64,000 nt of DNA from Paracoccus liaowanqingii (lineage in GTDB: Bacteria; Pseudomonadota; Alphaproteobacteria; Rhodobacterales; Rhodobacteraceae), in contig NZ_CP038439.1 in the NCBI RefSeq assembly GCF_004683865.2, forward strand, positions 2,978,001-3,042,000. The letters run 5' to 3'. The number at the start of each line of letters is the position of its first letter. Position 1 is the stretch's first letter. Of the stretch, positions 31,720-42,530 are shown piece after piece. The notes under the pieces are model-generated. The model had not been told where the DNA came from. It did not search any database and saw only the letters and a program-made list of their open reading frames with translations. The translations under genes and the position numbers were made by a program.

Positions 31720-31774
31720 CCGGGGGACTTTGCGTCCCCCGGACCCCCTGCAGGATATTTTTCCCAAGATGAAA
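31720..31774. repeat. Dispersed intergenic repeat, copy A (with terminator-like hairpin)
   Basis: A hairpin CCGGGGGAC-TTTGC-GTCCCCCGG (31720-31742), then a segment ending in ATATTTTTCCCAAGATGAA. On the other strand this reads TTCATCTTGG..AAAATATCC..GGGGGTCCGGGGG, the same element as at 39498-39550 and 42475-42530. Here it lies in transcription sense as a hairpin followed by T5 after serC. Confidence 0.7.
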
Positions 31775-35123: not shown

Positions 35124-35633
35124 TCACGTCGGCTCGGGCGGGACGAAGGGCAGGCTGAAGGCCAGGTAGTTGCGGCTGTCCTCGCGGTAATAGCACAGCG
35201 CCTGCGTCAGATCCTGGATCAGGAACCAGCCGAACCCGCCCTCGGGCAGATCGCCCGGGATCAGGGCGGGCAGGCTGCGCGGCAGGATGCAGCCCTCGGG
35301 CAGCGACACCCCGTCATCGGTCAGCGCGCAGGCCAGGCCGCCGTCATGGCGCACGATGCACAGGTGGATCACCGGCGGCCGGGCGACGGCCGGGGCGGGG
35401 TCGGGCCCTTCGAGCGGGGCGTGTTCGGTGACGTTGTTCATCACCTCGGCCAGGACCAGTTCCAGACGGCCGAGCGTGTCCTCGCTGACCTCGGGCAGGA
35501 ACCGCTGGCGCACGTCCTGCAGCGCGGCGCGCACCGTGACGGGGTTGGCGTCCAGCACGCGGTGGAACATCGGCTGCGCCCGGCATCTGGCCGGGCAGCC
35601 GATATCGGGGTCGGACCGTCCGGTGGCTGTCAT
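35124..35633 (-). CDS. ATP-binding anti-sigma factor-like protein (RsbW/SpoIIAB type)
   Basis: A 169-residue HATPase. The N box is visible in LELVLAEVMNNVTEHA, with the G1-type ALTDDGVSLP and the G2-type PEGGFGWFLIQDLTQAL, the small kinase fold of partner-switching regulators. It would phosphorylate the adjacent STAS protein and sequester a target, classically a sigma factor. ATG 35633 overlaps the STAS gene stop as ATGA; an internal ATG (MFHRVLDANP) is possible. No phosphatase or sigma factor gene is adjacent, so the output is unknown. Confidence 0.85.
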   Translation of the reverse strand: MTATGRSDPDIGCPARCRAQPMFHRVLDANPVTVRAALQDVRQRFLPEVSEDTLGRLELVLAEVMNNVTEHAPLEGPDPAPAVARPPVIHLCIVRHDGGLACALTDDGVSLPEGCILPRSLPALIPGDLPEGGFGWFLIQDLTQALCYYREDSRNYLAFSLPFVPPEPT

Positions 35634-35962
35634 GCATCGGGCTCCTTCTGGGCGGGAGGGGGCTGCAGGTCGAAGACGCTGTCCATCCGGGTCAGTCGGA
35701 AAACGCGTTCGACATTGGGCGTCAGCGCCGACAGGACCATCGCAAGATGCTGAGGCAGGCTCTTGCGGACGGCGATCATCGCGCCCAGGCCCGAACTGTC
35801 CATGAAATCGACTGCCGCCATGTCCAGCCGCACCGGCTTGCGGCAGGGGGCGACGATCTCTCGCAGCTTGTCCTTGAAGGGCGTGGCGATGGCGGCGTCG
35901 ATGCGCGCGTCCAGCACCTTGATGTGCAGATGGGTGTCGGCATCCTCGACGATGAACTGCAT
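35630..35962 (-). CDS. STAS-domain anti-sigma factor antagonist
   Basis: A 110-residue RsbV/SpoIIAA-type protein with the phosphorylation loop MDSSGLGA; the serine pair is at 56-57. ATG 35962 follows AAGGAAGGA at good distance. The gene overlaps the HATPase gene by four bases, so the antagonist and kinase are made together as in partner-switching modules. Confidence 0.92.
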   Translation of the reverse strand: MQFIVEDADTHLHIKVLDARIDAAIATPFKDKLREIVAPCRKPVRLDMAAVDFMDSSGLGAMIAVRKSLPQHLAMVLSALTPNVERVFRLTRMDSVFDLQPPPAQKEPDA

Positions 35963-36292
35963 GCGGGGTCCTTCCTTGCGCGGGTTCCTCAGCGCTAAGG
36001 CGGAAAGGTTGCGATCCGGTTAGCAAACGAGCCCTGCCGGAAAAAACTGCGGAAGAACCCGACGTCTCGAGCCCGCCGCAGGCCGCCCGCCCCGGCCACC
36101 GACTTAACATAAGTTGCACAATAATGCGGCAACGGCCCTCGGGCACCCGGACGCCGGCCCCGGCCCTGTCCCAAGGATGCGGAACTAACAGGCAACCGTT
36201 CCGGTTCTTCTGTGGACATCGCGGAACCGGGCGCGGATCATCAAGGTCACAGAACAGCCCGGACGGACAATGCGCCACAGAATGGGGGGATG
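35963..36292. other. Divergent intergenic region between the STAS gene and the ATP-grasp operon
   Basis: 330 bases with no gene. It has an A+T-rich patch with ACTTA-ACA-TAAGT (36102-36114). Near 36181 GGAAC-N17-GGTT resembles the alphaproteobacterial EcfG promoter (GGAAC-N16/17-CGTT) with one mismatch. It should contain promoters for both directions. Confidence 0.35.
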
Positions 36293-37702
36293 ATGAGTTA
36301 TTACAACGAGATGTTCGAGGGCGATCGCGTGCGCGATCCCTATGCCCGGCTTCGGGACTGGGTCGAGACGATGCCCGACGATTTCCGCCAGATGAAGCAG
36401 GCCGAGGCCGAGGCGCTGTTCCGACGCATCGGCATCACCTTCGCGGTCTATGGCGAGGGCGGCGATCCCGACCGGCTGATCCCCTTCGACATGATGCCCC
36501 GCGTGTTCGAGCAGGCCGAATGGCGCCGCCTTGAACGCGGCATCAAGCAGCGCGCCCGCGCCCTGAACGCCTTCCTGCGCGACGTCTATGGCCGCGGAGA
36601 GATCATCCGCGCCGGCCGCATCCCCGCGCGGCTCGTCTATCAGAACGAGGCCTACGAGAAATCCGTCGTGGGGGTCGTGCCGCCGCGCGGCATCTACTCC
36701 CACATCATCGGCATCGACCTTGTCCGCACCGCCAAGGACGAATTCTACGTGCTGGAGGACAATTGCCGCACGCCCTCGGGCGTCAGCTATATGCTGGAAA
36801 ACCGCGAGATCATGATGCGCATGTTCCCGCAGCTGTTCCGCAACAACCGGATCGAGCCGGTGGACCAGTACCCCGACCTGCTGCGCCGCACGCTGGAATC
36901 GGTGGCGCCTGCCAAGTGCAGCGACCGCCCCACCTGCGTGATCCTGACGCCGGGCCATTACAACAGCGCCTATTACGAGCACAGCTTCCTGGCCAACCTG
37001 ATGGGCGTCGAACTGGTCGAGGGGCAGGATCTGTTCGTGGACGGCGAATTCGTCTACATGCGCACCACCACGGGCCCCAAGCGCGTCGACGTGATCTATC
37101 GCCGGATCGACGATCCCTATCTGGACCCGCTGTGCTTCCGCCCCGATTCGATGCTGGGCATCCCGGGGCTGATGGATGTCTATCGCTCGGGCGGGGTGTC
37201 GATCTGTTCCGCGCCGGGAGCGGGCGTGGCCGACGACAAGGCCATCTACACCTTCGTCCCCGAGATGATCCGCTTCTATCTGGGCGAGGAACCGATCCTG
37301 AACAACGTCCAGACCTGGACGCTGTGGAAGGACGACGACTATCGCTATGTCATGGAGCACCTGCCCGAACTGGTGGTCAAGGAGGTCCATGGCTCGGGCG
37401 GCTACGGCATGCTGGTCGGCCCGAAATCCACGAAAGAGGAAATCGAGACCTTCCGCCTCAAGATCCAGGCCAATCCGTCGAACTACATCGCCCAGCCCAC
37501 GCTGGCCCTGTCCACCTGCCCGACCTTCGTGGACGAGGGCATCGCGCCCCGCCATGTCGATCTGCGGCCCTATTGCCTCTGCGGCGACCGGATCGAGCTG
37601 GTGCCGGGCGGGCTGACCCGCGTGGCGCTGCGCGATGGCAGCCTGGTCGTGAACTCGTCGCAGGGCGGGGGCGTCAAGGACACTTGGGTCCTGTCCGAAT
37701 GA
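36293..37702 (+). CDS. Circularly permuted ATP-grasp family protein
   Basis: A 469-residue member of the circularly permuted ATP-grasp family, predicted to form peptide or amide bonds. Recognisable segments are MSYYNEMFEGDRVRDPYA, RGIKQRARALNAFLRDVYG, FYVLEDNCRTPSGVSYMLEN, VKEVHGSGGYGMLVGP and RPYCLCGDRIELVPGG. Tandem ATGs occur at 36290 and 36293; the GGGGGG run upstream favours the second. It is followed 14 bases on by the alpha-E gene and then the transglutaminase gene, a known conserved trio often linked to the Anbu protease. The biochemical product is unknown. Confidence 0.93.
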   Translation: MSYYNEMFEGDRVRDPYARLRDWVETMPDDFRQMKQAEAEALFRRIGITFAVYGEGGDPDRLIPFDMMPRVFEQAEWRRLERGIKQRARALNAFLRDVYGRGEIIRAGRIPARLVYQNEAYEKSVVGVVPPRGIYSHIIGIDLVRTAKDEFYVLEDNCRTPSGVSYMLENREIMMRMFPQLFRNNRIEPVDQYPDLLRRTLESVAPAKCSDRPTCVILTPGHYNSAYYEHSFLANLMGVELVEGQDLFVDGEFVYMRTTTGPKRVDVIYRRIDDPYLDPLCFRPDSMLGIPGLMDVYRSGGVSICSAPGAGVADDKAIYTFVPEMIRFYLGEEPILNNVQTWTLWKDDDYRYVMEHLPELVVKEVHGSGGYGMLVGPKSTKEEIETFRLKIQANPSNYIAQPTLALSTCPTFVDEGIAPRHVDLRPYCLCGDRIELVPGGLTRVALRDGSLVVNSSQGGGVKDTWVLSE

Positions 37703-37716
37703 GAGGGGGAGCCACA

Positions 37717-38673
37717 ATGCTCAGCCGTACCGCATCGAACCTGTTCTGGATGGGCCGCAACCTGGAACGGGCCGAGACCGCCGCCCGTCTGCTGGACGTG
37801 GGCCAGCGGATCACGCTCCTGCCCAACACCGAGCTGGGCTATCAGAACGAATGGAACTCGCTGCTGCAGGCCTCGGGCAGCTCGGACTTGTTCCGCGAGA
37901 AATACGGCGACATCACCCAGGAGAACATCGAGGAATTTATCTTCTTCGACCGCGCCAACCCCTCCTCGGTGGCCAGCTGTTTGGAAAAGGCCCGCGAATC
38001 GGGACGCATCGTGCGCACGGCCCTGACCAGCCAGGTCTGGGACGCGCTGAACGTGTCCTACCAGGAACTGCGCAAGATCGAGCGGCTGCCCCGGTCCAAG
38101 CTGGACACGGCCTCGCTGACCGATTTCACCACCGGCCACACCTCGACCGTGCGCGGCGCGATCAACGCGACCCAGCTCAGGAATGACGGCTGGCACTTCA
38201 TGAACCTGGGCTATGGCCTGGAGCGGGCCGACGCCACGGCCCGCCTGCTGGACGTGAAGTACTTCGTCCTGCTCCCGCGGATCGAGTTCGTGGGCTCGGG
38301 CCTCGACACCTATCAGTGGCAGGTGATCCTGCGCGCGCTGTCCGCGCACCGGGCCTATCACTGGGCCTATGGCGGCGACATCACCGCGGGACAGGTGGCC
38401 GATTTCCTGATCCTGAACGGCGAGTCCCCCCGCGCGCTGATCACCTCGCTCTACGAGACGGTCTGGCATTTGGAAGGGCTGGCGCGGCGCTACGGCGACG
38501 GCGTGCCGATCTCGGCCCGCGACAAGGCGCGCGAGGTGCTGACCGCGCTGCAGGCCCGCGACATCGAGATGATCTTCGACGAGGGGCTGCACGAATTTCT
38601 CAGCTGGTTCATCCGCGAACTGGCCGAGATCTCGAATTTGGTGCACCAGGATTACCTGCTGGGAGGGGCGTGA
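37717..38673 (+). CDS. Alpha-E domain protein
   Basis: A 318-residue mainly helical protein of the alpha-E family, with MLSRTASNLFWMGRNLERAETAARLLD at the N-terminus and a partly similar GYGLERADATARLLD further on. No enzymatic motif is known to me; the family occurs almost only beside the circularly permuted ATP-grasp and transglutaminase genes. ATG 37717 follows GAGGGGGAG. It lies 14 bases after the ATP-grasp gene and 3 bases before the transglutaminase gene. Confidence 0.93.
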   Translation: MLSRTASNLFWMGRNLERAETAARLLDVGQRITLLPNTELGYQNEWNSLLQASGSSDLFREKYGDITQENIEEFIFFDRANPSSVASCLEKARESGRIVRTALTSQVWDALNVSYQELRKIERLPRSKLDTASLTDFTTGHTSTVRGAINATQLRNDGWHFMNLGYGLERADATARLLDVKYFVLLPRIEFVGSGLDTYQWQVILRALSAHRAYHWAYGGDITAGQVADFLILNGESPRALITSLYETVWHLEGLARRYGDGVPISARDKAREVLTALQARDIEMIFDEGLHEFLSWFIRELAEISNLVHQDYLLGGA

Positions 38674-38676
38674 GCC

Positions 38677-39486
38677 ATGAAGCTGCGCATTTCGCACGAG
38701 ACCGTCTATCGCTACGACCAGCCGATCCGCAACCTGGTGCAAAGCCTGCGCCTGACCCCCTCGGTCTTCGAGGGGCAGAAGATGCACGACTGGACGATCG
38801 ACGTGTCGGGCGGCATCCGGGGGCCGGGCTTCCGCGACGGTGCCGGCGACTGGATCGAGGGCTGGACCGTGCGCGGCCCGGTCGATCATGTGACCATCCG
38901 CATCGACGGGCGCATCGACACCCGCGACATGGCGGGCGTGCTGCGCGGCCATCGCGAGATGATCAACCCGCTGACCTATCTGCGCGACACCTCGGTCACC
39001 CGCCCCGACCCGGCGCTGCGCGAGCTGGCCTTCGGCATCACCGGCACGACCGACCAGCTGGACCTGGCGCACAAGCTGTCGGCGGCGGTCAGCGACCGCA
39101 TCGCTTTCCGCCCCGGCGTCACCCAGACCGGCACCACCGCCGCCCAGGCCTTGGCCCTGGGCGAGGGCGTCTGCCAGGACCACACCCATGCGCTGACCGC
39201 TCTGGCGCGCCTGCGCGGCCTGCCCGCGCGCTACGTCTCGGGCTACCTGCACTCGACCATCGACGGGCAGGCCCATGACGCCGCCCATGCCTGGGCCGAG
39301 ATCCAGGTCGAGGGGCTGGGCTGGATCGGCTTTGATGCGGCCAACCGCTGCTGCCCGGACGAACGCTATGTCCGGCTCGGCTCGGGCCTCGATTCCGCCG
39401 ACGCCGCCCCGATCCGCGGCATCGCCATGGGCACCGGCGCCGAGGAACTCGACGTCAGCGTCCGGGTCGAGGAGATGCCGCAGTAG
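38677..39486 (+). CDS. Transglutaminase-like cysteine peptidase
   Basis: A 269-residue transglutaminase-fold protein with a beta-rich N-terminal region typical of the bacterial family. The catalytic triad is visible as C166 (EGVCQDHTH), H204 (AHAWAEI) and D220 (GFDAAN). Bacterial members mostly act as proteases or peptide-modifying enzymes rather than cross-linkers. It closes the three-gene operon and is followed by repeat copy B. Confidence 0.94.
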   Translation: MKLRISHETVYRYDQPIRNLVQSLRLTPSVFEGQKMHDWTIDVSGGIRGPGFRDGAGDWIEGWTVRGPVDHVTIRIDGRIDTRDMAGVLRGHREMINPLTYLRDTSVTRPDPALRELAFGITGTTDQLDLAHKLSAAVSDRIAFRPGVTQTGTTAAQALALGEGVCQDHTHALTALARLRGLPARYVSGYLHSTIDGQAHDAAHAWAEIQVEGLGWIGFDAANRCCPDERYVRLGSGLDSADAAPIRGIAMGTGAEELDVSVRVEEMPQ

Positions 39487-39497
39487 ACCGGCCTCCC

Positions 39498-39550
39498 CCT
39501 TCATCTTGGCGAAAATATCCCGCGGGGGTCCGGGGGCGCGAAGCCCCCGG
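39498..39550. repeat. Dispersed intergenic repeat, copy B
   Basis: TTCATCTTGG-CG-AAAATATCC, then CGCGGGGGTCC and a hairpin CCGGGGGC-GCGAA-GCCCCCGG (39530-39550). The same order of blocks occurs at 31720-31774 (opposite strand) and 42475-42530. Read on the minus strand it is a hairpin followed by ATATTTTC, a plausible terminator for the converging nucleotidase gene. Confidence 0.75.
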
Positions 39551-39579
39551 TGCGGCCCCGTCCCCCGGTCCGGCCGCCG

Positions 39580-41541
39580 TCACAGGGTGATGCGATAGCG
39601 CGCGAACCCCTCCGCCGTCTCGCCCGCGGGCTCGATCCGCAGCGCCGTGACATCGTCCAGATAGGCTGCCGACCCCGGCCCCGTCTCGAACAGGACCGAA
39701 GCCCCCTCCAGCGGCGCGAACGACCAGTTCCCGTCCGCCGCCGGATCAATGACCCCCTGCTCGACGATATGGCGCACGATGACGTCGCGGTTCGTGTCCG
39801 GCCCCTCGAAGACGATGGTCGTCCCGTCCGCCCCCGGAAACGCCCCCCCGCCCGAGGCGCGGTAGTTGTTGGTGGCGATGATGAACTCCGCTTCCGGATC
39901 GACCGGCTGCCCGTCGAAGGCCAGGTCTGTGATGCGGTTCGCCTCCGGATCCGCGACCGCCCCCTCGCCGTCGAAGCGCGCGGGCTGCGACAGGTCGATC
40001 CGATAGGTCACCCCGTCGATCACGTCGAAATTGAAGCTGGGAAATTCGGGGTTCAGCAGCGGCTGGTCGGCCTCGCCCGGCACGATCCGGTTGAAGGCCC
40101 CGGCGCTGCGCTCCAGCCAGTCCTTGACCTCTGCACCGGTGACGCGCACCGCGCGGATGGTGTTGGGATACAGATAGAGGTCCGCCACGTTGCGGATGGC
40201 GATATCGCCCGCCGGCACGTCGGTGAAATAGTCCGGCCCCCCGCGCCCGCCCGCCTTGAAGGGCGCCGCTGCCGACAGGATCGGCAGCCCCTCATGCGCG
40301 GTCCCCGCCAGCATCTGCGCGATGTACCAGCTTTGCGCGTTCGAGACGACCTGCACCGACGGATCGTCCGCCACCATCGCGAAATAGCTGTAGAGCGCCG
40401 CGCTGGTCTGACCCACCGGGCGGCGCACATAGTCCAGCGTCTCCTGATGCTCGGCCGCCGTGGCCTCCTCGATAGCCGCTACGCTCTCGACCAGGGGAAC
40501 GACCGCGTTCTCGGCGTCGCGCTCGGAAATCGGGCGCGCCTCGACCTCGTGGCCGGCCACGACCCATCCGTCGCCCTGTCGCTGCAGCAGCAGATCGACC
40601 AGCCCCATATGCGATCCCCAGAACCCGGCCATCACCCCGGGCTTGCCGCCGATGGTGCCGGCGGCCACGTCCACGCCCTCGGCCTCCTCGTAATCCGGGC
40701 CGGGAAAGACCCGGTGCGAATGCCCGGTCAGGATGACGTCGATCCCCTCGACCCCGGCCAGCGGGATGGCCGCGTTCTCCATCCCCGGCTCGTGCGCCAC
40801 GGCGCCGATCCCCGAATGGCACAGCGCGATGACCAGATCGACGCTCTCGGCGCGCAGCCGCGGCACCCAGGCCTCGGCCGCCTCGACGATGTCGCGGGCG
40901 GTCACGCGGCCCTCCAGATGGGCGCGGTCCCATTGCATGATCTGCGGCGGCACGAAGCCGATGATGCCGATGCGGATCGGATGGGCCTCGCCCGCCCCGT
41001 CGACCAGTTCGCGCTCCAGCACGGCATAGGGCGGCAGCAGCGTCGCGCCGCTCTCCTCGACGATCTCGACATTGGCGCAGACCACCGGCCAGCCGGCGCC
41101 CGCCAAGCTGCGCTCCAGGAACTCCAGCCCATAGTTGAACTCGTGATTGCCAAGCGTGCCGCCGTCATAGCCCAGGGCGTCCATCGCCTGGATGACCGGA
41201 TGGGACGCGCCCTCGGGCATGCCGCGCTCATAGGCGATATAATCGCCCATCGGGTTGCCCTGCAGGAAATCGCCATTGTCCAGCAGCAGGCTGTTGGTCG
41301 CCTCGGCCCGCACGGCAGTGACCAGGGCCGCGGTCCGCGACAGGCCCACCGTGTCGATGGCCCGGTCGGCGTAATAGTCGTAGGGCCACACATGGACGTG
41401 CAGGTCGGTCGTCTCCATGATCCGCAGATGCGCCTGCCCCGCCTCGGCGCGGGCGGAATAGGGATGCAGAACCATCAGCGACAGCCCGGCGGCCCCCGAA
41501 GACAGGAACCCGCGGCGCGACAGGACGAAGATCTTGGTCAT
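39580..41541 (-). CDS. Tat-exported 5'-nucleotidase / 2',3'-cyclic nucleotide phosphodiesterase
   Basis: A 653-residue periplasmic nucleotidase of the CpdB/UshA family. A twin-arginine signal ([19 protein letters not shown]) precedes the metallophosphoesterase domain with [26 protein letters not shown] and [10 protein letters not shown] 5'-nucleotidase C-terminal domain follows ([15 protein letters not shown]). The closest pattern is the bifunctional 2',3'-cyclic phosphodiesterase/3'-nucleotidase. ATG 41541 is preferred to ATG 41550 because AAGGAA is then 8 bases away. It sits on the opposite strand, splitting the ATP-grasp/transglutaminase operon from anbu. Confidence 0.92.
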
Positions 41542-41731
41542 GGTCGTCATTCCTTGGTGATGTCCGGCGCAGGATGGGCGATTTCCGCGCCCGCGGCGAC
41601 CCACAGTTTGATGACAGGCGCCGGGCTGCCACCCGGGCGGGCATTCCCGCCCCCTCATCCGAAACGAGCGATTGCGCCCCCCGCGCCCCGGTCCTAGTCT
41701 TCGCCGGATCGAGAAACGGAAAGACATGCCG

Positions 41732-42457
41732 ATGACCTATTGCGTCGGGCTGAAACTGGACGCCGGACTGGTGCTGCTGTCGGACACCCGCACCAATGCG
41801 GGGCTGGACAACATCTCGTGCTATCGCAAGATGTTCTTCTTCGAGAACCCGGGCGAACGCATCATCACGATCATGACGGCGGGCTCGCTCTCGGTCACCC
41901 AGACCACCATCGCGCGCCTCGACGAGGCGATCGAGGACGAACTGGCCGACGAGACGACCTCGATCCTCAAGGCGCCCACCATGCTGCGCGTGGCCACGAT
42001 CATCGGCGACACGCTGACCCGCACCCGGCGCGAGATCGCCGAACAGTGCCGCGACCTGAAACAGCAGGCTTCGGCCAGCATGATCGTGGGCGGGCAGCGC
42101 GCCGGCGGCGACATGCGCCTCTTCCTGATCTATCCCGAGGGCAACTTCATCGAGGCCACCGAGGACACGCCCTTCCTGCAGATCGGCGAACACAAGTACG
42201 GCAAGCCGATCCTCGACCGGGTGGTGACCCCTGCCACCAGTCTGGCCGATGCGCAGAAGGCGGTGCTGCTGTCCATGGATTCGACCCTGCGCTCGAACCT
42301 GTCTGTCGGCATGCCGCTGGACATGGCGGTGATCGAACAGGGCGCCTGCGCCGTGACCACCCGCCGCCGCATCCTGGACGGCGACCCCGACTTCGCGCAG
42401 ATGAGCGCCGCCTGGTCCGCCGCCCTGCGCGACAGCTTCGTCAAGGTCACCATCTGA
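41732..42457 (+). CDS. Anbu proteasome-like peptidase
   Basis: A 241-residue Ntn hydrolase of the Anbu (ancestral beta subunit) family, an HslV/proteasome relative. The frame starts [21 protein letters not shown], with SASMIVGGQ and [12 protein letters not shown] as further family segments. ATG 41732 is chosen over ATG 41726 because removal of its methionine exposes a threonine, the expected catalytic residue, and because GGAAAG is then better spaced. Anbu is known to co-occur with the ATP-grasp, alpha-E and transglutaminase genes found at 36293-39486. Confidence 0.93.
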
Positions 42458-42474
42458 CCCCTCGGCGACCCCCG

Positions 42475-42530
42475 CCTTCATCTTGGCGGAAATATCCCGG
42501 GGGAGTCCGAAGGACGGGGGCAGCGCCCCC
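42475..42530. repeat. Dispersed intergenic repeat, copy C
   Basis: TTCATCTTGG-CGG-AAATATCC, then CGGGGGAGTCC and a hairpin GGGGGC-AGC-GCCCCC (42516-42530). It has the same block order as copies at 31720-31774 and 39498-39550. It lies after anbu and before the malic enzyme gene. Confidence 0.72.

Follow-up and report, generated by a model that had tools for sequence, protein, structure and literature searches.

The 64,000-nucleotide stretch at 2978001-3042000 of the Paracoccus liaowanqingii genome analysed here (the window) contains an Anbu locus, in which genes for an ATP-grasp ligase, an alpha-E protein, a transglutaminase-like (TG) protein, a CpdB-type nucleotidase, and the peptidase Anbu follow one another, the nucleotidase gene on the reverse strand and the other four on the forward strand. 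All five assignments are confirmed by Pfam. The first three genes (the trio) are tightly packed on one strand between positions 36293 and 39486. The present analysis concerns the way in which the trio and anbu are transcribed and the extent to which they go together in related genomes.

The ATP-grasp ligase (36293..37702, + strand) is of the circularly permuted type (Pfam PF14403/PF04174; CP_ATPgrasp_2, E = 5.9e-166) and aligns near full-length, over residues 4-468, with PDB 3n6x, a putative glutathionylspermidine synthase (E = 5.6e-197). Its residues E155, N157, and K363, the ExN and Lys positions that we take to be catalytic, are at least 97% conserved in 89 alignment rows. The alpha-E gene (37717..38673, + strand; PF04168, E = 8.5e-88) most likely starts at 37717 rather than at the in-frame ATG upstream at 37702, because the resulting 318 aa is the length of most homologues listed. 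The protein carries two conserved ER motifs, E22-R23 and E174-R175 (numbered from the 37702 ATG), and a comparison of its N-terminal and C-terminal parts by profile (hhalign) gives a match of 97.5% probability (E = 8.8e-12, 95 columns). It looks like an internal duplication, since the halves match by profile and each contains one of the conserved motifs. The AlphaFold2 model is all-helical (mean pLDDT 88.3), and the best match among PDB sequences has E = 0.084. The TG protein (38677..39486, + strand) combines PF01841 (Transglut_core) with PF08379 (Bact_transglu_N), and its triad C166/H204/D220 is at least 97% conserved in 115 alignment rows.

The anbu gene (41732..42457, + strand; Pfam Proteasome, E = 3.7e-6) encodes a proteasome-like N-terminal nucleophile (Ntn) hydrolase and begins about 2.2 kb after the TG stop codon. 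The protein starts with Met-Thr and has no propeptide, the ATG at 41732 lying immediately 5' of the Thr1 codon at 41735, and Thr1 would therefore become N-terminal once the Met is removed. Thr1 is present in all 121 alignment rows that reach the column, and D17 and K32 are at least 97% conserved (131 rows). The sequence matches solved Anbu structures (5nyj, E = 1.2e-69; 5lox, 1e-57); in near full-length alignments the protein has Thr1, Asp17, and Lys32 in common with 5nyj, 5nyw, and 5lox, presumably the proteins of Hyphomicrobium, Yersinia bercovieri, and Pseudomonas aeruginosa, respectively. The initial annotation of this DNA had proposed the tight trio, the TG triad, the N-terminal threonine of Anbu some 2.2 kb further on, a Tat-exported nucleotidase on the other strand in between, and the retention of all four partners. 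These points are borne out, with the genes present and the catalytic residues conserved, and the loss of ATP-grasp catalytic residues that it had named as a possible objection is not seen. In this genome anbu is not a fourth operon gene directly 3' of TG, the opposite-strand nucleotidase being placed between them.

A putative promoter of anbu, TTGCGC-N17-TAGTCT (41672..41700, + strand), begins about 60 nt before the start codon and follows the pattern TTG[CA]NN-N17-TANNNT. This pattern is found in 48 of 56 distinct Paracoccus anbu upstreams (duplicates and loci below 77.5% anbu identity left out), where 0.06 are expected from dinucleotide shuffles, and at spacings of 14-16 or 18-20 nt it is found in none of the 56. 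A stricter search for ATTGC followed by TA[GA] with a free spacer returns a single spacing in all 41 matches. Among other called genes it is found in 10 of 587 in the Paracoccus loci and 6 of 953 in the loci of other genera. The Paracoccus element is intergenic and is present where the trio and anbu are contiguous, where the nucleotidase splits them, and, in five of ten genomes with unlinked genes, where the trio is distant. The features at anbu that are conserved across species are those of the sigma70 type, namely the TTG of the -35, the 17-nt spacer, and the TANNNT of the -10. In several Alphaproteobacteria more than 60% of sigma70 promoters lack the final T, as stated in a passage of PMC8407463, a paper that also draws on a cited start-site map of R. 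sphaeroides, and the anbu element, having this T, would thus belong to the minority.

The element is also found in 44 of the 64 loci of other genera. Where the gap between TG and anbu is shorter than 60 nt, it overlaps the last part of TG and its -10 starts at the TG stop codon; the full motif sits on the stop in 35 of 40 loci. In the same short gaps the TG stop is TAG or TAA in 40/40, compared with 299/953 for all genes, and the final T of the -10, which is non-coding, is present in 35/40, compared with 167/953. Among the 15 loci with gaps of at least 60 nt, the element lies on the TG stop in one and within the gap in five. The coding constraint of TG alone does not explain the motif, since it occupies the stop in 35/40 short gaps and in 1/15 wide ones. 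Where no TG gene stands beside anbu, the pattern is kept in four of five loci (L069, L081, L088, and L110, not L103).

These observations bear on the alternative that the conserved TTG-N17-TANNNT is not a promoter at all, arising instead as a by-product of TG coding or as a protein-binding site. Such an origin could be suspected from the other genera, in which the element overlaps a TG C-terminus that is possibly itself constrained. We nevertheless consider it distinctly unlikely, as the element is intergenic with identical spacing in Paracoccus, leaves the TG stop in wide gaps, ends in a non-coding T, and persists in the four loci without an adjacent TG gene.

The trio has a promoter-like element of its own. 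The sequence TGGACA-N17-GATCAT (36213..36241, + strand), a putative trio promoter, follows the pattern T[TGA]GAC[AT]-N17-NATNAT, present in 42 of the 57 upstreams from Paracoccus, against 0.02 in shuffles, and in none of 53 from other genera. A GGAAC box (36181..36185, + strand) is located 32 nt upstream of its -35, and exactly this distance recurs in 31 of the 42 Paracoccus upstreams having the element. The box was also considered as part of an extracytoplasmic function (ECF)-like promoter, GGAAC-N17-[CG]GTT; this pattern occurs in only 20/57 upstreams, and the one found in 42/57 was preferred.

Gene order was compared in the 80 best of 576 named loci around anbu, in 121 Paracoccus genomes, and, in a separate survey, in 120 genomes of the family outside Paracoccus. 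For the Paracoccus counts, the Anbu matches of G211 (a fragment) and G235 (E = 5.8e-7) were dropped, which leaves 100 of 102. Three genomes were likewise discounted for ATP-grasp, G211 for having fragments and G135 and G193 for having nothing beyond a 30% paralogue; this leaves 99 of 102. G180 and G149, in whose less complete assemblies the ATP-grasp gene is split between two frames, and G136, with TG in two pieces, were retained. In the named loci ATP-grasp, alpha-E, TG, and anbu usually follow one another in this order, in keeping with the earlier statement that the four families recur together. Both anbu and a core ATP-grasp gene are present in 99 of the 121 Paracoccus genomes; the genes are contiguous in 62 of these, split by the nucleotidase in 19, arranged otherwise in 13, and placed on different contigs in 5. 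Ten Paracoccus genomes (G166, G170, G142, G187, G218, G192, G136, G224, G208, and G199) have the trio and anbu separated by over 10 kb or by a change of contig, counted only where the genes lie away from contig ends, so that G147, with its genes at contig ends, is excluded. All ten retain the four genes, with the trio together (TG in G136 as noted above). A four-gene tree from a short search, with 55 rows from Paracoccus and 4 from the outgroup (59 in all), requires at least four changes for the unlinking.

The gene that splits the locus in the window (39580..41550, - strand) encodes a 2',3'-cyclic-nucleotide 2'-phosphodiesterase/3'-nucleotidase of the CpdB type (Pfam Metallophos and 5_nucleotid_C; PDB 5eqv). 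It scores 853.9 bits against NCBIfam NF006938, above the cut-off of 486, and 737.6 bits against TIGR01390, below the cut-off of 883. It differs from CpdB in its place beside anbu and in a twin-arginine signal, read from the sequence, which suggests export. In 24 of the 99 Paracoccus genomes less than 2 kb separates the nucleotidase gene from anbu, and the nucleotidase stays at anbu in three of those with a distant trio (G170, G142, and G218). In four genomes, moreover, a homologue of 60-63% identity is found some 6 kb away from a paralogue in which ATP-grasp and alpha-E are fused. On these grounds the nucleotidase could be regarded as a fifth member with a function in the Anbu system, a role that we consider very improbable. 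The nucleotidase does not adjoin anbu in the other 75 of the 99 genomes, and it is inside the fetched locus in 8/16 Paracoccus loci and 0/64 others, some loci ending early. In the family outside Paracoccus, 40 of the 120 genomes carry both anbu and the nucleotidase (at least 60% identity), and in none were they seen as neighbours, the two sharing a contig in 9 (nearest 64 kb) and being on different contigs in 31; 13 of the 54 genomes with the nucleotidase at this identity have no anbu match. By parsimony on the four-gene tree the adjacency requires at least 10 changes, and in the nucleotidase tree copies at anbu are intermixed with copies elsewhere. In the paralogue loci a gene for an AI-2E transporter and an Hsp70-like gene separate the homologue from the paralogue (Pfam on one of the four), and the export suggested by the signal likewise argues against a partnership. 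The nucleotidase is thus probably a lineage-specific chance neighbour and not an Anbu partner.

In the four paralogue loci (L117-L120) the nucleotidase homologue is divergent from a series of genes for an Hsp70-like protein, an AI-2E transporter, a DUF2126 amidoligase, and the fused ATP-grasp/alpha-E protein (Pfam on L119 only), and in two of the four a TG gene comes next.

The co-occurrence of anbu with the trio is nearly perfect. A core ATP-grasp gene is present in 99 of the 100 Anbu-bearing Paracoccus genomes, and the exception, G193, has TG and, beside anbu, an alpha-E match starting at residue 13, which looks like a contig end. The 120 genomes of the family divide into 82 with anbu and ATP-grasp, 1 with anbu only, 5 with ATP-grasp only, and 32 with neither, these counts not being corrected for relatedness. 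The anbu-only genome (G119) has a contig that begins inside alpha-E. Of the ATP-grasp-only genomes, two (G017 and G059) have ATP-grasps that are diverged (52-53%) and one (G030) has its gene close to the end of a contig; G048 and G083, both of 99% completeness, contain the full trio and no anbu match.

Paracoccus has three subtypes of the set. Their anbu identities to the window are 75-100%, 47-50%, and 42-43%, and their ATP-grasp identities are 84-100%, 60-61%, and 54-56%, respectively, apart from the broken gene of G180 at 69% in the first subtype; no set combining the anbu of one subtype with the ATP-grasp of another is seen in the Paracoccus survey. The third subtype (three genomes; loci L141-L143) has a zinc peptidase gene before ATP-grasp and alpha-E and carries anbu on the other strand; a TG gene is not found in it at E ≤ 1e-25. 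The peptidase was assigned to Peptidase_Mx by Pfam in G151 and by clustering in the other two. Pfam was applied to the zinc-ribbon Peptidase_Mx of L141, a locus where the peptidase/ATP-grasp/alpha-E set is present twice. In L140, the locus of G211, fragments of ATP-grasp and anbu adjoin each other with STAS/RsbW genes nearby, an apparent joint decay of the set.

The idea that anbu never occurs without the trio is overturned by three lineages with anbu and no trio gene detected. In three of the 80 named loci (L069, L081, and L088) an intact anbu stands without the trio. Searches of the corresponding whole genomes (G239-G241) give no ATP-grasp match at E ≤ 0.001, where four of seven genomes matched in the same search, and no match to the Alpha-E family, for which the positive controls matched. 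Their anbu genes keep 76, 76, and 74 of 76 otherwise conserved sites and fall at separate places in the anbu tree, which comes from a short search and has many weak forks. L054 and similar relatives have a block of genes ahead of ATP-grasp; in L088, whose record is titled complete genome, this block immediately precedes anbu itself, and what follows anbu is as in L054. L081 has one gene of the L054-type block before anbu and the same genes after it, and L069 has the block before anbu with two other genes between. Because these flanking blocks match those of such relatives, the trio seems to have been lost in place.

Taken as a whole, the comparison supports a coupling of the trio and anbu that is strong but not absolute. 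The initial annotation had treated the four genes as one system and had held that relatives in which anbu and the trio fail to co-occur would speak against this. Such genomes exist but are rare, namely the three anbu lineages without a detected trio gene and the two trio genomes without an anbu match. The near-perfect co-occurrence is in keeping with the notion of a four-partner system; the inseparability of the partners is weakened by these exceptions and by anbu's own element. A stricter version, in which the four proteins form one obligate pathway of peptide synthesis or tagging followed by Anbu degradation, with the split incidental and anbu dependent on the trio, would account for the counts given above, for the retention of all four genes in the ten unlinked genomes, for the matched subtypes, and for the adjoining fragments of G211. 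We regard it as unlikely, although it retains some weight, in view of the intact anbu of the three lineages without a detected trio gene, the full trio of G048 and G083, and the separate promoter-like elements of trio and anbu. In addition, passages of PMC6376114 report that the Yersinia proteins, when co-expressed, showed no specific interaction.

We therefore favour, as the probable organization, an Anbu locus of two transcription units, in which Anbu is usually coupled to the trio and able to work without it. The first unit would be the operon of ATP-grasp, alpha-E, and TG under its own sigma70-like promoter. The second would be anbu with a promoter of its own, which in the genera with short gaps would be placed in the end of the TG gene, its -10 opening with the TG stop codon. 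Because anbu would already have had this promoter, the CpdB gene could settle between the units without silencing it, and the distance between the units could grow large in other Paracoccus, again with anbu unsilenced. As judged from the protein families, the ATP-grasp enzyme would activate a carboxylate with ATP to form an amide or peptide bond, alpha-E may serve as carrier or scaffold, the TG-like cysteine enzyme may transfer or trim the product, and the threonine hydrolase Anbu would break down the product or tagged proteins. Anbu would also have at least one job independent of the trio.

Several points weigh against the two-unit organization. The search for the element fails in 8 of the 56 Paracoccus upstreams, five of which form one clade with unlinked units, and in 20 of the 64 loci of other genera; no full match occurs in 9 of the 15 loci with gaps of at least 60 nt, and none in the three loci with gaps above 800 nt. 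The upstreams, like the TG genes, share ancestry, and the tests of the element are not corrected for kinship. A sigma factor of the RpoH family could read the anbu element, as these factors likewise require TTG at -35 according to a passage of PMC3441632; no Anbu or partner gene is named as under RpoH control in passages of PMC3441632, PMC10673084, PMC8307010, and PMC3688512. As for the trio-less genomes, they emerged from an anbu-centred search, two of the three are draft metagenome bins and possibly incomplete, and the TG search of G239-G241, which gave no match, had no positive control within it. The same TG query matched in 97 of the 121 Paracoccus genomes.

Two copies of a repeat flank this part of the locus, copy B beside TG (39489..39532, + strand) and copy C 3' of anbu (42466..42509, + strand), 86% alike over 44 nt. 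Copy B has 42 matches in the genome, itself included (40 of 134 candidates scored), and the repeats are therefore not specific to the locus. The core reads CTTCATCTTGGC..AATATCC, and in the copies of the window a hairpin-like stretch rich in G/C comes after it. A looser pattern finds three copies in the window (31753-31774 on the - strand, 39499-39520 and 42476-42497 on the + strand), 12 in 38 Paracoccus loci, and 7 in 64 other loci, all between called genes, and several of them no more than about 120 nt past a stop codon. A repeat-mediated rearrangement at anbu is not supported, the family being genome-wide. The earlier proposal of a rearranged locus stands insofar as the nucleotidase lies between TG and anbu only in a subset of Paracoccus, and the repeats drop out as marks of the event.

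On the other side of the trio, divergent from the ATP-grasp gene, a pair of STAS and HATPase_c_2 genes (35124-35962, - strand; Pfam) resembles the RsbV/RsbW partner-switch pair. The pair keeps near the trio in several Paracoccus in which the trio and anbu are apart (L131, L132, and L134-L136).

The Anbu operon of ATP-grasp, alpha-E, transglutaminase, and Anbu has already been published, and in passages of PMC5666114 and PMC6376114, both referring to Valas and Bourne 2008 and to Iyer et al. 2009, the four families come in the same order as at the present locus. The window locus differs from the published operon in the opposite-strand nucleotidase between TG and anbu and in the separate promoter-like element of anbu, and its relatives differ in having unlinked units and anbu without a detected trio. 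A passage of PMC6376114 places anbu "predominantly" in the operon, so exceptions are already implied in print. What appears to be new here is the conserved promoter-like element of anbu itself and the presence of anbu without the trio in the family. Neither the embedded element nor a trio-less anbu of this family was met among the Anbu papers of an open-licence library, covered by passages of PMC5666114, PMC6376114, and PMC8665760; the word "promoter" does not occur in PMC5666114 and, in passages of PMC6376114, refers solely to expression vectors.

Two published views of Anbu compete, both met in passages of PMC5666114, where Pseudomonas Anbu is also reported to bind proteasome inhibitors. One, credited there to Iyer et al. 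2009, makes it the peptidase of a system for peptide synthesis or tagging; the other, that of PMC5666114 itself (Fuchs et al. 2017), makes it a machine for protein degradation. The separate elements, the co-retained unlinked units, and the natural "trio-minus" and "anbu-minus" genomes make these views testable without knowledge of the substrate, and the embedded element predicts the exact place of the anbu transcript start. We consider it an evenly balanced possibility that the textbook "Anbu operon" would prove to be two overlapping units, with the promoter of one in the tail of its neighbour, and that Anbu would be an autonomous protease, selectable even after the loss of its three supposed partners.

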